Shown in pieces: positions 19,350-26,074 of a DNA stretch of 37,617 bases. The notes beneath the pieces were generated by a model, which was given only the letters and a program-made list of their open reading frames with translations, did no database searches and was not told where the DNA came from. Each line of letters begins with the position of its first letter. Positions within the stretch are counted from its first letter, which is position 1. Made by a program: the position numbers and the translations under genes. Source of the DNA: Candidatus Uhrbacteria bacterium GW2011_GWE2_46_68 (GTDB taxonomy: Bacteria > Patescibacteriota > Patescibacteriia > UBA9934 > GWF2-40-263); assembly GCA_001002765.1 (NCBI GenBank), contig LCMS01000004.1:31158-68774 (forward strand). Reading direction: 5' to 3'.

Positions 19350-19423
19350 AGGGGCGTCGTTCAATGGTAGGACGGAGGTCTCCAAAACCTCTGACATAGG
19401 TTCGATTCCTATCGCCCCTGCCA
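19350..19423 (+). tRNA. tRNA-Trp (CCA), integration target
   Basis: Acceptor AGGGGCG pairs with CGCCCCT. The anticodon loop is CTCCAAA (anticodon CCA), the T-arm TAGGTTCGATTCCTA, with discriminator G and an encoded CCA. A TATAAT box lies at 19331-19336. The last 15 bases are overlapped antisense by the 3' end of the serine recombinase gene. A 10-bp stem terminator, CAAAACTGCC/GGCAGTTTTG (19430-19457), follows, and this too lies inside the recombinase reading frame. Confidence 0.95.
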
Positions 19424-20977
19424 GCGTGACAAAACTGCCGCAGACGTGGCAGTTTTGTGTTTAAACATGCCGTTTCCATCCAGTTCTACCAGAGTTAGAT
19501 CCTTATAAAGTTGTGGGGAGTTTTGAGAGAACAATTTCCACACGGGTTCCATGTCTAATGAGAGTTTTTTGTTGAATATAACAAAGTTAGATCCTAGTGC
19601 ATGAACAATCTGTTTTTTGACGTCTGGTGACCCTGAATCAAAACGAGCTTTGGCCTCTTGGGCAAAGAGAAACGTTTTTTCCATTTGATCGATCCAATGA
19701 TCAGAAGTTTGTTCCTGATCATCAAGTTTGGCTTTTAGTCTATCCCGTTCTTCCAGAAGTTCTTGTTTCTTTTTCTTGTATTCTTCCTCGCTTATTAGCT
19801 CACCGATAAGGGCGTTCGTGAGGTTATCAATGCTTCGTTGAGTATTGTTGTATGTTTTTTGTAAAGATTCCCTAGTAGTGGAAAGCGTATCAATCTGGTT
19901 TTCATGAATATAGCGCAACCATCTTATGGCCCATTGAGCAAATTGTTCAGGGATAGTCATTTGAGACAACAAATCAACAATTTGTGCTTCCAAGTCCTTT
20001 TCATTTATTTGTGCTTGTTTGCAATCAATATTCTCTTTTTTCTTTGTGCAACGATAGTAAACATAATGTTTTCCCGACATCTTTAAAATACCGTAGGCGG
20101 TAAAGAGACACCCACACTCCTGACACCGGATAAGCCCCGTGTAAGCGAAATTTCGCGTTTGTGGGCGTGGCACAGGCTCACCAAGGCGTTTCTGCACCTT
20201 CCAAAACTCTTGCTCTGAAATCATGGCTTTATAAGCGCCTTGATATTCAGAAACCTGTCCATCGTGTTTACGTCGTATGCACCCATAATAAAATGGGTTT
20301 CGAAGCATGTGATACATACCACTTCGAGAGAGGGGACGACCACCTACTCGTTTCCGTGTAATCGTTTTAAACCCAAATTCTTTATTTAAGATATCTCGCG
20401 CTTCTTCTGTTGATTTTCCTTCTAAAATCAAGTCCCAGACTTTTCGAATAATAGGAAAGCGATCCGGATCAGGAATAATGGAATGATCATCCAGTTTGTT
20501 GAGATATCCAATAGGGGCCACCCCACACCATCCTCCTTGTTTCATTTTTTGTAAGTTTCCTCGTTTTACATTCTTTGAAAGATCGTCTGTGTATTTTTGT
20601 GCCATTCCAAATTCAAGATAAAGCATGATCTGATTCTCATTATCTGCACTGTACAACTGGGCAGGAGTTTGAATAACAAGGTTTTGTTCTTTCAAAGCCC
20701 AAATCACTTGGCCTCCATCAATCGGATTACGAGCTAAACGATCCAGTTTCCAACAAAGAACACCGTCAATTTTTTTATCTAAAACCTCCTGCATCATTTC
20801 AGCAAACTTTGGACGTCCAAGCTTACTGGCAGATTGAGCTTCTCTGTATGTTTTAACAACACGCAACCCTAGTCTTTGAGCAATATCTGTCATTTCATCC
20901 ACCTGTGCTTCAATCGAGAGTACTTGTCTATCTTCAGACTCCGAAGATTTTCGAGCGTAGATAACAAAATTTTTCAT
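19409..20977 (-). CDS. Large serine recombinase (integrase)
   Basis: 522 residues from the ATG at 20977; an upstream TTG at 20986 would add three residues. The N-terminal resolvase domain has the catalytic serine in IYARKSSESEDRQ (S11), then GRPKFAEMM and CWKLDRLARNPIDGG. The recombinase domain follows, then a zinc ribbon (CQECGCLF ... YRCTKKKENIDC) and a long coiled coil (about 370-450), the full layout of a large serine integrase. It cuts and exchanges attachment sites without needing long homology. Its last five codons and stop are antisense to the tRNA-Trp 3' end, and the preceding codons span the tRNA terminator, so it marks the left end of the element. Integration at a tRNA is less usual for serine than for tyrosine integrases. 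Confidence 0.93.
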   Translation of the reverse strand: MKNFVIYARKSSESEDRQVLSIEAQVDEMTDIAQRLGLRVVKTYREAQSASKLGRPKFAEMMQEVLDKKIDGVLCWKLDRLARNPIDGGQVIWALKEQNLVIQTPAQLYSADNENQIMLYLEFGMAQKYTDDLSKNVKRGNLQKMKQGGWCGVAPIGYLNKLDDHSIIPDPDRFPIIRKVWDLILEGKSTEEARDILNKEFGFKTITRKRVGGRPLSRSGMYHMLRNPFYYGCIRRKHDGQVSEYQGAYKAMISEQEFWKVQKRLGEPVPRPQTRNFAYTGLIRCQECGCLFTAYGILKMSGKHYVYYRCTKKKENIDCKQAQINEKDLEAQIVDLLSQMTIPEQFAQWAIRWLRYIHENQIDTLSTTRESLQKTYNNTQRSIDNLTNALIGELISEEEYKKKKQELLEERDRLKAKLDDQEQTSDHWIDQMEKTFLFAQEAKARFDSGSPDVKKQIVHALGSNFVIFNKKLSLDMEPVWKLFSQNSPQLYKDLTLVELDGNGMFKHKTATSAAVLSRWQGR

Positions 20978-20984
20978 ATAAACC

Positions 20985-21101
20985 AAATGGACGGCCCTGG
21001 CTACCCAACCGCGCTTATACCAAAGTATTCCGCTTGCTGGCAGGACCGCCCATTTAGAGCAGTAAACGAAAAAATAAAACTTTGGTTATCGGTTGGGTAG
21101 C
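20985..21101. promoter_or_regulatory. Interleaved inverted repeats ahead of the recombinase (structure R1)
   Basis: Two arm pairs alternate. A (20985-20997, AAATGGACGGCCC) pairs with A' (21043-21055, GGACCGCCCATTT; two mismatches). B (21000-21025, GCTACCCAACCG...TACCAAAG) pairs with B' (21080-21101, CTTTGGTTATCGGTTGGGTA plus GC). The order A-B-A'-B' is that of a pseudoknot. It fills most of the 138-base gap between the recombinase and the zinc-ribbon gene. It could be a leader RNA, an operator array or an attachment or origin site. Confidence 0.7.
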
Positions 21102-21115
21102 ACAATTATTCTACA

Positions 21116-21721
21116 TTACTCAGTAGCGTCAAGGCAACGAATTAATTTCTCAAGCTGCTGTAAAACTATTGGTTCGGATTCTTCGTATTGACTCAGTTTT
21201 TCTAACCATCTCCGATATCGTTTAGTTGGTTTTCCTTTCCAAAATTTTACCCGCATTTTGGAACATTCTTCCTTAAACTTCTCTTCTTTTTTCCATGCTT
21301 TTCCAAGAGCAGCAAACATTTTGGACGTGTATTCTTGTTGCGAATAGTAGGTAAGATCATAGCAGTGTCTACATTTGAATTTAACCCCTCCTGCGTAAAG
21401 GATTTCAACATGTCTTTCACACTCACACTTAAGCCAATATCTTTGACCACCAAAGTGACAAGGAGTGCTAATTATCAGGATATCTGAACTAACATAAGTA
21501 CGTTCAATCCAAGGATCTCGATAATAATAGGATATATTAAGAGTATGATTTAAGGCATCTACATAAATATCCGCTCTTCCCGTTTCTTCCCCACACGAGG
21601 ACCAGACAATCATTCCAGATTTCGATGTATTTTTGATCAAGTAACCTTCATTTTTGAGGAATTTAATATCAATTCTTTTAAGTGATTCACAAGTGTACTT
21701 TGACATATATCTCGAAATCAT
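21116..21721 (-). CDS. Zinc-ribbon protein of mobile elements, unknown function
   Basis: 201 residues. The middle has CHFGGQRYWLKCECERHVEILY followed by FKCRHCYDLTYYSQQEY, a two-knuckle zinc-binding pattern shared by a family of small proteins that I associate with mobile elements of proteobacteria and other bacteria. The C-terminal third is basic and helical, and could bind nucleic acid. Its ATG at 21721 overlaps the last base of the upstream stop codon (TAATG), so it is translationally coupled to the primase-helicase. An internal start at MSKYTCESL is an alternative. The role may be in excision or regulation, but no direct evidence is seen. Confidence 0.65.
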   Translation of the reverse strand: MISRYMSKYTCESLKRIDIKFLKNEGYLIKNTSKSGMIVWSSCGEETGRADIYVDALNHTLNISYYYRDPWIERTYVSSDILIISTPCHFGGQRYWLKCECERHVEILYAGGVKFKCRHCYDLTYYSQQEYTSKMFAALGKAWKKEEKFKEECSKMRVKFWKGKPTKRYRRWLEKLSQYEESEPIVLQQLEKLIRCLDATE

Positions 21722-23967
21722 TAGGACTTCATACCATCGATAGGGGGTACTTTAATATTTGATGCCTCAAAAGGGGGGATTCCATTAGAATATTTCCATC
21801 CTGGTCTTAAAGAACGCAGTTGCTCACACTCATCAGAACAGAACCAGTCGAATTCTTTTTTAATAGTTACAATCTTTTCTGGTTGTCCTGGTTCACTCGT
21901 ATTTACTTTTTCTATATCTACGATTTTCAGTACGCGGAGTGTTTCAATTTCTTTCAATGCTGTAGGATTGCTACAACTTATAGCTGTTTCAACCAGAGAA
22001 GTTGTGATCGTACCCCCATACTCCAAAAGTACATTTAAGAGTTTAATTCGATTGTATTGAGCTGAGTTAAATGTAACTTCAATTACAGGCCAAAGATCTT
22101 CATTACAGATTTGAGTGCGTTCACAAACGAGAGCGTGACCTCTGGCAAGATTATAAAGGAGTTGATTGATACGTATAGGTTTTTCTATAACGACATTTGT
22201 ATGATGATGTTCATCAACATTCCCTCCATCACTCCAAACATTCACGGTTCCACGCAAATGGGCGAGAAGATTTGCACATCTTGAAATCACTCGGCGGCAT
22301 TCTTCAGGATCATCTTCTTTGTTCCATTCGATTCCATCCTTGTAGTTCTGCCACAGATTTAGTACTAATTCACGCGTAATTTCCCTACAGGAACCTTCTT
22401 TCTTTTTGAAGTCTTTTTGAATAAGAAGATTAGCGAGTTCGTCTTCTGATTTATCACTCGAGTTCAGATTTAAGAAGAATAAACGTGATCCAAGGTTCCC
22501 CATGAATTTCCACACACGGGGAAGTATTGGAGTTGAGGCAGCAAGGAACATAAACGTGTAGTCTCCGAAATAACCACGAGACCCGTGCACCCCACTATCT
22601 GATTCATATCCCTCACCATCAAAGACACGTGTAAGTATTCCCAAGCTTTTTAAGAGGTTTTCTTGACGCTCAGCAAAGATAGGGGCTAAATCGCGGACTA
22701 TCAGCGTCTTGTGGCGTATACGAGGTAATAGATCTATTTTAGCGAGATCCTCCTTCTTTTTATTTGACGCATGAGATACAAATGAAGCAGGGGAGAAATG
22801 GTCGGTCATGTAAGCAAGTTCACGTAAACTAGAAAAAAAATTGAGTGTGATTGTTTTTCCAGAACTAGGAACATCAACGTAGACAAGTCCAAATGGATTG
22901 CGCACGTCCTTGATAAGTAATTGAGTAAAAACAGAAATACCTGCTTCAGCTGCAGCAAAACATTCGGGAAATAGATCCCCTACGATATTTCGCCATTCCT
23001 GGATTGATACTTTTTGTGTTGGTTTTGGGAGTTCTCTGTAGCGATTCCCGCTTTCTTCAATATCAGAAAAAATTTGTCCTGTTTTTAGCAGTTCCATGAA
23101 ATCGGCTAAGTTTTTTCCAAGCTTCAGAAAATAATCCGTAATATCACCGTGTTCACCAACTTCCTCTGGTAAAGAAACAATTTTTGCATGAGGAATAAGA
23201 GCCCCGACTTTTCTTGCACCTTCTCTGCCAGCATCATCAAGATCATAAGTGATATAAACTTCCTGAATTTTTTGGAAGAGCGAACCCCAATCATCATTAA
23301 AGGCTCCAGCTCCTCCAGTACTTGAAATGCTAGGAATATTGAGATTGCGTAGAAGTAAGGCGTCAAATTCCCCTTCAGTAATTACGATAAAAGTTGTGTC
23401 CTTTAGATTTTCAATCCCAAATAATGACATTTTAGCTCCTTTGGAGTTCGTATATTTTGGAATGTTTTGATCTGTAATAAAAGGGGATCTACGTTTTTTC
23501 ATGAACAAAGGATTTCTTTTTTCATCGTAAATTGGAATCATAATTTCTTTACCATTCCAACCTATATTTGCTTCCTTAATTACATTTTCAGAGAGACCCC
23601 TTTCTTTCAAAAGCCAGTTTTTAATTTCAGGAGGTATATTTAAGCTCCACTCTTCAATCATTTCAGCAAGTTGTTTTGATCCCGGTTTTCGTTCAATAGG
23701 TTGTTTCTGCTTTCGTTCAATAAATCCAAGTTCGGCAGGATCGTCTCCAAGATGTCTGGATAGAGTGACAAGATTCCCTTCCGCACCACAGCGTTTACAT
23801 TGGTAGAGTCCTGATTCTTCGTTAATGTAGAGATGACACTCAGTGAGTTTATTTCTTTTTTCATCGCCTCCACAGAAGAGACAAGAGGTTATAAGTTCGC
23901 CATTTCGACTTGCAAACTCAATGTTTTTTGAGTTAAGATACTGCTGAACAGTAAGTATGCTCCCCAT
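21721..23967 (-). CDS. Primase-helicase-like replication protein
   Basis: 748 residues. A CHC2-like zinc finger comes first (C29-x2-C32, C57-x2-C60), then a TOPRIM domain with ITEGEFDALLL (E198/E200) and YDLDDAGREG (D242, D244, D245). An ATPase domain begins with VDVPSSGKTIT near residue 365, where the P-loop lacks the usual first glycine or alanine. Probable Walker B and sensor segments follow (KTLIVRDLAP, FMFLAASTP), and a winged-helix end. This is the layout of self-replicating mobile elements that carry their own primer synthesis and unwinding. It heads an operon with the zinc-ribbon protein, with a 95-residue gene just upstream. It would allow replication of the excised form. Confidence 0.85.
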   Translation of the reverse strand: MGSILTVQQYLNSKNIEFASRNGELITSCLFCGGDEKRNKLTECHLYINEESGLYQCKRCGAEGNLVTLSRHLGDDPAELGFIERKQKQPIERKPGSKQLAEMIEEWSLNIPPEIKNWLLKERGLSENVIKEANIGWNGKEIMIPIYDEKRNPLFMKKRRSPFITDQNIPKYTNSKGAKMSLFGIENLKDTTFIVITEGEFDALLLRNLNIPSISSTGGAGAFNDDWGSLFQKIQEVYITYDLDDAGREGARKVGALIPHAKIVSLPEEVGEHGDITDYFLKLGKNLADFMELLKTGQIFSDIEESGNRYRELPKPTQKVSIQEWRNIVGDLFPECFAAAEAGISVFTQLLIKDVRNPFGLVYVDVPSSGKTITLNFFSSLRELAYMTDHFSPASFVSHASNKKKEDLAKIDLLPRIRHKTLIVRDLAPIFAERQENLLKSLGILTRVFDGEGYESDSGVHGSRGYFGDYTFMFLAASTPILPRVWKFMGNLGSRLFFLNLNSSDKSEDELANLLIQKDFKKKEGSCREITRELVLNLWQNYKDGIEWNKEDDPEECRRVISRCANLLAHLRGTVNVWSDGGNVDEHHHTNVVIEKPIRINQLLYNLARGHALVCERTQICNEDLWPVIEVTFNSAQYNRIKLLNVLLEYGGTITTSLVETAISCSNPTALKEIETLRVLKIVDIEKVNTSEPGQPEKIVTIKKEFDWFCSDECEQLRSLRPGWKYSNGIPPFEASNIKVPPIDGMKS

Positions 23968-25840: not shown

Positions 25841-25917
25841 GTTGTAAGGGTACCTCTCTTTTTTCTAATTTTCAAAGCAAATCTGGCTATACGTTTCAGG
25901 ATGATATAGACTATAAA

Positions 25918-26053
25918 TGTCCAAACCCAGCCACTACATGGCCAAGTTTTGGCTGTTTTACCGGAAAGCGCTTAGTAAACGGCACCCGGTTAAAACAGTT
26001 CGAGCACTTTCCGTGTTCGGCTGGGTTTGGACACCACTCGGGTGTCGCTTTTT
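25918..26053 (+). ncRNA. Candidate structured RNA or cis-site R2 with its own terminator
   Basis: An outer 15-bp perfect stem (25918-25932, TGTCCAAACCCAGCC, with 26019-26033) encloses interleaved pairs. CTGTTTTACCGG pairs with CCGGTTAAAACAG (one bulge), and GAAAGCGCT pairs with AGCACTTTC (one mismatch) in pseudoknot order. GCCAA-GTT-TTGGC is a further small hairpin. The outer stem overlaps a perfect terminator, GACACC-ACTCG-GGTGTC then GCTTTTTG (26030-26053), so the two folds compete. It lies between divergent genes. Either a short plus-strand RNA or an attenuator would fit. No strong promoter is evident upstream. Confidence 0.5.
26030..26053 (+). terminator. Intrinsic terminator at the end of R2
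   Basis: GACACC (26030-26035), loop ACTCG, GGTGTC (26041-26046), then GCTTTTTG. It shares four bases with the outer R2 stem. An extended -10 box, TGTTATAAA (26053-26061), starts at its T-run and serves the gene at 26075. Confidence 0.75.
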
Positions 26054-26074
26054 GTTATAAACCCACCTAAAACT

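Follow-up and report, generated by a model that had tools for sequence, protein, structure and literature searches.

We analyzed a 37,617-nucleotide stretch of DNA (the window; G000:C4:31158-68774, contig LCMS01000004.1) from the 1.06-Mb genome of Candidatus Uhrbacteria bacterium GW2011_GWE2_46_68, which holds an integrated mobile element with two structured RNAs, R1 in front of a serine integrase and R2 in front of the cargo genes (coordinates in Table 1). Our preferred reading, for which we consider the chances about even, takes R2 for a cis-acting RNA switch, an attenuator, that sits between a promoter and the element's cargo operon. The pseudoknotted fold from which this reading starts is strongly supported by comparison with related sequences. 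A preliminary description, made from the letters alone, had noted at R2 a perfect 15-bp outer stem, interleaved inner pairs and a terminator sharing four bases with that stem, and had proposed that R1 and R2 are related to each other; our analysis confirmed what it had observed and partly supports how it had interpreted it.

Each part of the described structure is present. The RNA is closed by the outer stem P1, contains an inner stem (P3a) and is interlaced by two pseudoknots, of which PK1 links an inner loop with the final bases before a U-run while PK2 involves a second loop. The plus strand has a folding energy of -60.3 kcal/mol compared with -36.9 for shuffled sequences (z = -6.1, 0 of 200 shuffles matching it), and a PK1 as good as that of the window arose in 3 of 300 shuffles. 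The terminator hairpin takes GACA from P1 and GGTGTC from PK1, and through the borrowed GACA the terminator and the outer stem exclude each other, as had been described. We additionally found that the R2 loop strand CGGCACCC pairs with the 3' arm of the terminator, a pairing that the preliminary description did not include. A good fold is obtained for the minus strand too (z = -5.3), as expected of any long inverted repeat. R2 is read on the plus strand, which is decided by its relatives, by the model scores (34.7 bits for the antisense against the sense match in Table 1) and by the conserved G-U pairs of PK1, which fit the plus sense (columns 79-147 are GU in 11 of 12 copies).

To collect relatives, primase searches led to related elements, these were scanned with a script that uses only the layout (outer stem, loop-to-tail pairing and U-run), and covariance models were then built from 10 R1 and 4 R2 sequences. 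The layout scan yielded nine R1 and four R2 units, the latter in four elements, and four further matches, three in the window scoring 14-17 and one in L029 scoring 25; it missed the window's own R1, which has a short U-run, and a tenth R1 was added afterwards. The models were run on 380 genomes of the class and on 172 genomes drawn from the phylum, with the window's genome in both sets. The R2 model matched 16 of the 380 class genomes (22 rows, three of which are antisense shadows of sense matches) and 4 of the 172 phylum genomes, own genome included; the window copy, which is part of the model, was found at E = 1.2e-38 in the class search. The R1 model, likewise built with the window copy, matched 38 of 380 class genomes (41 matches) and 13 of 172 phylum genomes, two of these already counted in the class set. 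Further copies in related elements, for which the preliminary description had called, thus exist for both RNAs, and its view of structured RNAs before the recombinase and, in the divergent region, before the cargo holds in that each is a recurring family. Five genomes (G000, G305, G402, G425 and G462) carry both families, compared with a random expectation of about 1.6 (38 x 16 / 380). One R2 copy (L108, 5379-5513) lies in the IMG/VR contig IMGVR_UViG_3300025154_002045, which is filed as viral; instead of a virus, this contig may represent an integrative element. DNA patterns for conserved R1 and R2 stretches matched no viral contig except at this R2, and BLAST found no match for R2 in phages and plasmids or for R1 in plasmids.

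The evidence for the R2 fold lies in compensatory changes among these copies. Twelve copies of the commoner subtype were aligned, leaving out L098, L101, the three copies from the 172-genome search and six copies of a second subtype whose core is not alignable (L090, L096, L097, L099, L100 and L103). Across P1, PK1, PK2 and the PK2 hairpin 97.3% of 407 cells are paired, a value favoured by the drawing of the structure on one of the 12 copies (L092). Changes on both sides occur in 17 of 35 pairs compared with 6.5 in shuffles, none of 500 shuffles being as good, and they fall to at most 5 when the partners are slid. These changes include 8 of the 15 P1 pairs and all five counted pairs of PK2, which is 100% paired; PK1 is 98.4% paired in the alignment and reaches at least 10 bp in all 23 sense copies (range 10-14 bp). 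Both sides of P3a change jointly in the copies of G305 and G416, as judged by eye. Between the window and G305, which carries the nearest relative of the element, a C-G pair of P1 has become G-C and one PK1 base pair has gone from both strands; the 192 bp around R2 are 82% identical, exceeding the 70% of the 4.9-kb element core. Copy L098 (G414:C17:14069-14205) has mismatched P1 strands that form 6 bp at best, as if halves of two copies were joined, and masked letters lie upstream of it.

The surroundings of R2 are conserved as well. A -10-like box ends 5 nt 5' of P1 in 18 of 22 R2 copies (6 nt in two and 10 nt in two; the count leaves out L101) and in 20 of 31 R1 copies. The score threshold for this box was reached by 30 of 31 R1 and 20 of 22 R2 copies, compared with 5 and 2 in a control stretch further upstream, and in both families the best -35-like box most often lies 17 nt from it. 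The window's own box is 10 nt from P1, or directly at P1, and a consensus promoter scan of the window gave no full sigma-70 match before R2. In 22 of 23 R2 copies, all but L101, a gene begins downstream on the same strand with its start codon 4-85 nt away, so that R2 has the leader position that an attenuator or riboswitch would occupy. The gap between RNA and gene is mostly too short for another promoter, so that transcripts of the gene would have to run through the RNA or arise further upstream. The first gene encodes a C5 methyltransferase followed by an NgoFVII-type nuclease in L090, a type III methyltransferase in L092, a GmrSD/HEC-06 protein in L104, a trypsin-like protease in L091 and a Glucodextran_B-domain protein in L086 and L096, while the second gene encodes a Cap4/LmuA-like nuclease in L102, an HSDR_N protein in L103 and a trypsin-like protease in L099; lipoproteins are also found after R2, and 10 of 20 tested proteins of the relatives had no Pfam family at E 0.001. 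A serine recombinase is present in 14 of 21 R2 neighbourhoods (two are short contigs), many of them beside a tRNA gene.

The competing terminator is supported mainly by its presence across copies and by the constancy of the GAC that it shares with P1. A hairpin of at least 6 bp that overlaps P1 and PK1 was found in 20 of 23 R2 copies, so that in these a putative terminator with its U-run excludes another conserved helix, as in attenuators. Bases 2-4 of R2 read GTC in 22 of 23 copies although much of the remaining P1 varies, which would be expected if GAC must pair with the tail too. Both sides of the hairpin have changed in L097 and L113 (GACAACC/GGTTGTC), and PK1 has changed with them. When the terminator and the inner P3 are taken together over the 12 copies, 88.1% of cells are paired.

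We propose the following model. Transcription would begin at or near the first base of P1, as the fixed position of the -10-like box suggests, and the nascent RNA would adopt P1 and the two pseudoknots, a step backed by the covariation. The last dozen bases before the U-run could then pair in one of two exclusive ways, with the inner loop as PK1 or, as the local hairpin, with the end of P1 plus CC. The local hairpin at the U-run would stop RNA polymerase and leave only a short RNA, whereas capture of the strand by the pseudoknotted fold would preclude the hairpin and let more polymerases reach the cargo gene. A ligand, a protein or a partner RNA are candidates for what might shift this balance. 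R1, with its similar layout before the recombinase, would probably gate integration and excision in a similar manner.

Several observations weigh against this model. Both-side changes in the terminator and inner P3 are limited to 2 of 12 pairs, and 72 of 500 shuffles are as good. L095, L104 and L101 have no 6-bp hairpin of this kind at the U-run and keep PK1, and a local terminator hairpin was not seen in R1 by eye. A simple estimate of duplex energies in the window gives -15.6 kcal/mol for PK1 and -7.9 kcal/mol for the hairpin; PK1 being the more stable, the RNA may normally end in the pseudoknot, which would then not be an alternative fold. The direction of switching is uncertain, as PK1 too abuts the U-run and might itself stop polymerase. 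Finally, an R2 copy without a gene 3' of it (L101, G203:C3:33547-33683) and an R1 copy without a recombinase (L081, G750:C64:37332-37459) would fit a free RNA better; these orphans may be free RNAs or remnants.

These orphans, one in each family, bear directly on the main rival, in which R2 and R1 are free small RNAs with a function in trans, for instance as the target of an element protein or as silencers of incoming copies of the element, and leaky read-through accounts for expression of the downstream gene. Both RNA ends lie inside the fold, with the box just 5' of P1 and PK1 running into the U-run, and an unpaired core that includes TAAAACA is conserved, all of which would suit such an RNA. 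We nevertheless regard trans action as rather unlikely given the same-strand gene no more than 85 nt away in nearly every R2 copy and the recombinase after R1 in 40 of 41 loci. We prefer the cis switch mainly because RNA and gene occur together in nearly all copies, with hardly any space for a promoter in between, and because the tail can pair with either of two partners, which recur across copies and exclude each other.

The same leader position could serve other kinds of cis control. Phage HK022 put and Bacillus EAR RNAs cause polymerase to read through later terminators, and an RNA that binds RNA polymerase or an elongation factor might explain a conserved pseudoknotted core at the very start of mobile-element operons; the first signal 3' of R2 is its own U-run and neither RNA matches a known family, which makes this idea improbable. 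Control of translation, in which the fold governs ribosome access to the start codon of the cargo or recombinase gene, would suit the start codons 3-43 nt 3' of most R1 copies, but the spacing varies widely, from 4 to 85 nt for R2 and reaching 206-218 nt in three R1 loci, and there is a U-run after the fold; we think it no likelier than read-through of later terminators. Least credible of all, and in our view highly improbable, is a DNA site that acts in recombination or replication through single-strand folding. A perfect long inverted repeat in an integrating element and the chimeric-looking P1 of L098 could be read in this way; the G-U pairs of PK1 are conserved in one sense only, and the fixed promoter-like box, the U-run and the directional tie to a downstream gene point to an RNA. 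Regarding an attC site, which requires a tyrosine integron integrase and a cassette array, the integrase of the window is serine-type, and no search was aimed at tyrosine integrases.

R1 offers a parallel case to the proposed R2 switch. Its loci were read in 30 cases from the class search (of 41 matches) and in 11 new ones from the phylum search, and a serine recombinase, recognised by eye from its N-terminal motif, follows in 29 and in all 11, respectively; these recombinases differ widely in their N-terminal motifs across the phylum. Across 31 aligned copies, 93.5% of the 820 cells of P1, inner stem and loop-to-tail pseudoknot are paired, with both-side changes in 19 of 27 pairs compared with 12.2 in shuffles and at most 14 in slid versions. 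The pseudoknot alone is 98.2% paired in this alignment, which was fitted to a model that holds P1 and the inner stem without the pseudoknot. R1 is kept in G305, with both-side changes in the inner stem and in one pseudoknot pair. Two related elements, L046 and L049, have a primase and an integrase and no R1; the sequence immediately 5' of the L049 integrase is similar to that in L025, as it might be after a loss of R1.

The proposed sequence kinship of R1 and R2 did not hold up. In the RNA sense, local and global alignments of the two were matched by 429 and 77 of 500 shuffles, and with both on the plus strand, as originally compared, by 210 and 25 of 500; a search with the R1 model gives no R2 copy below E = 1. 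The 8-mer AGTAAACG is indeed present at 21061-21068 and 25974-25981, but R1 is a minus-strand and R2 a plus-strand RNA, so that the 8-mer has opposite orientations in the two, and it is not kept in other copies. We therefore rejected it as evidence of kinship. The CCCA(A/G)CC and GG(T/C)TGGG arms do have the same orientation in both RNAs. What the families have in common is a layout of promoter-like box, outer stem, loop-to-tail pseudoknot, U-run and gene, and such a layout without alignable sequence means that they may be distant paralogues or convergent. The tail CAGGTGTCCCTTTTG of a distant R1 copy (L140) resembles the R2 tail by eye, which is a hint only. It is a tentative and somewhat doubtful idea that the two families are branches of a single class of mobile-element RNA switches found throughout the phylum, borne by a promoter and set before genes that are to be kept silent until a suitable time, which would gate recombinase and defence or other cargo in response to one common signal.

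A part of the window at about 19.4-29.2 kb, with lower G+C (0.37-0.41 across nine 1-kb steps from 20 to 29 kb, compared with 0.415 to 0.60 outside it apart from 0.33 at 6-7 kb), carries the integrase, the 201-aa protein, the primase-like protein, the divergent gene and the cargo genes. The cargo genes lie on the plus strand from 26075, and family and defence searches with their proteins gave nothing convincing. No repeat shared between attL and attR was found by a search that handled the two stretches separately. Recombinase genes end beside or inside tRNA genes (Glu, Asp or Trp) at L115, L119, L122, L128, L129, L024, L028, L047 and in the window, which suggests that tRNA genes are integration targets for serine integrases of this phylum.

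The primase is 78% identical to that of the nearest relative (G305:C37), whose contig was the one named record matched by the primase search (SCSL01000005.1, a Patescibacteria group bacterium metagenome-assembled genome). It had no match in viral contigs, and among phages it had 536 records with partial matches, all below 60% identity and none covering 80% of the query. The protein of the divergent gene, labelled winged-helix in the preliminary description, had no family above the cut-off, no relatives in viral, genome or plasmid collections, and one match besides its own in 379 phylum genomes. It aligns locally with the divergent gene product of G305, at 34% identity across about 90 residues; the two elements have first cargo genes that do not match each other. 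A single family of divergent genes beside R2 copies was rejected, as only those of the window and G305 match.

Table 1. Features of R2, R1 and the surrounding element in the window
Feature	Positions	Strand	Remarks
R2 RNA, whole conserved unit	25918-26054	+	137 nt; covariance-model match 143.2 bits
-10-like box before R2 (TGATAT / TATAAA)	25902-25917	+	conserved position
P1, 5' strand	25918-25932	+	15 bp, no wobble
P1, 3' strand	26019-26033	+	pairs with 25918-25932
P3a, 5' strand CTGTTTTA	25953-25960	+	pairs with 25991-25998 TAAAACAG; from sequence
PK2, 5' strand CGGAAAG	25962-25968	+	pairs with 26007-26013
PK2, 3' strand CTTTCCG	26007-26013	+	in loop of hairpin 26002-26007/26013-26018
PK1, 5' strand CGGCACCCGG	25980-25989	+	pairs with 26038-26047
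PK1, 3' strand TCGGGTGTCG	26038-26047	+	immediately 5' of U-run
Competing terminator hairpin GACACC-ACTCG-GGTGTC, then GCTTTTT	26030-26053	+	hairpin 26030-26046; GACA (26030-26033) common to P1
U-run	26049-26053	+	from sequence
First cargo gene, 179 aa	26075-26614	+	ATG 21 nt 3' of R2 RNA; no family
Divergent gene, 491 aa	24365-25840	-	
Primase-like protein	21721-23967	-	
201-aa protein			within element
R1 RNA	20983-21103	-	6 nt 5' of serine integrase ATG; model match 97.7 bits
Large serine integrase	19409-20977 (also given as 19409-20986)	-	Pfam Resolvase, Recombinase, Zn_ribbon_recom
tRNA-Trp	19350-19423		overlapped by integrase 3' end

At its gathering score Rfam 15 recognised only tRNAs in the window, with a best E of 1.1 in the R2 region, far under the cut-offs, and nothing in the R1 region; in 20 relative loci it placed no family at the RNAs. 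The literature listings and abstract openings that we consulted hold no description of RNAs of the R1 or R2 type. The two families offer a testable way to learn how mobile elements in this phylum, nearly all of it uncultured, regulate their integration and when restriction and other defence genes are expressed. If R2 is a switch, it would be a portable RNA control unit associated with very diverse accessory genes, which is unusual among cis-regulatory RNAs.

Among known systems, the IS110 bridge RNA is, like R1, a structured RNA directly before a recombinase gene. IS110-type bridge RNAs accompany an IS110 (DEDD) recombinase and have variable loops that match target and donor. We rejected this assignment since the recombinases here are of the serine (Resolvase/Recombinase) type and the loop strand of R1 (GGGC) hardly varies, unlike a guide. 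The immunity system of phage P4 based on CI RNA may resemble R2, in which a structured leader of an integrating element would likewise end prematurely before the genes; the P4 RNA pairs with its leader whereas the strand exchange in R2 would be intramolecular. The preQ1, SAM-II, fluoride and ZTP riboswitches share with R2 a pseudoknot, a strand used by both sensor fold and terminator-like hairpin, and a leader position. R2 differs from them in a predicted start fixed at P1, in having two pseudoknots without an Rfam match and in being tied to unrelated mobile-element cargo rather than to one metabolic pathway.
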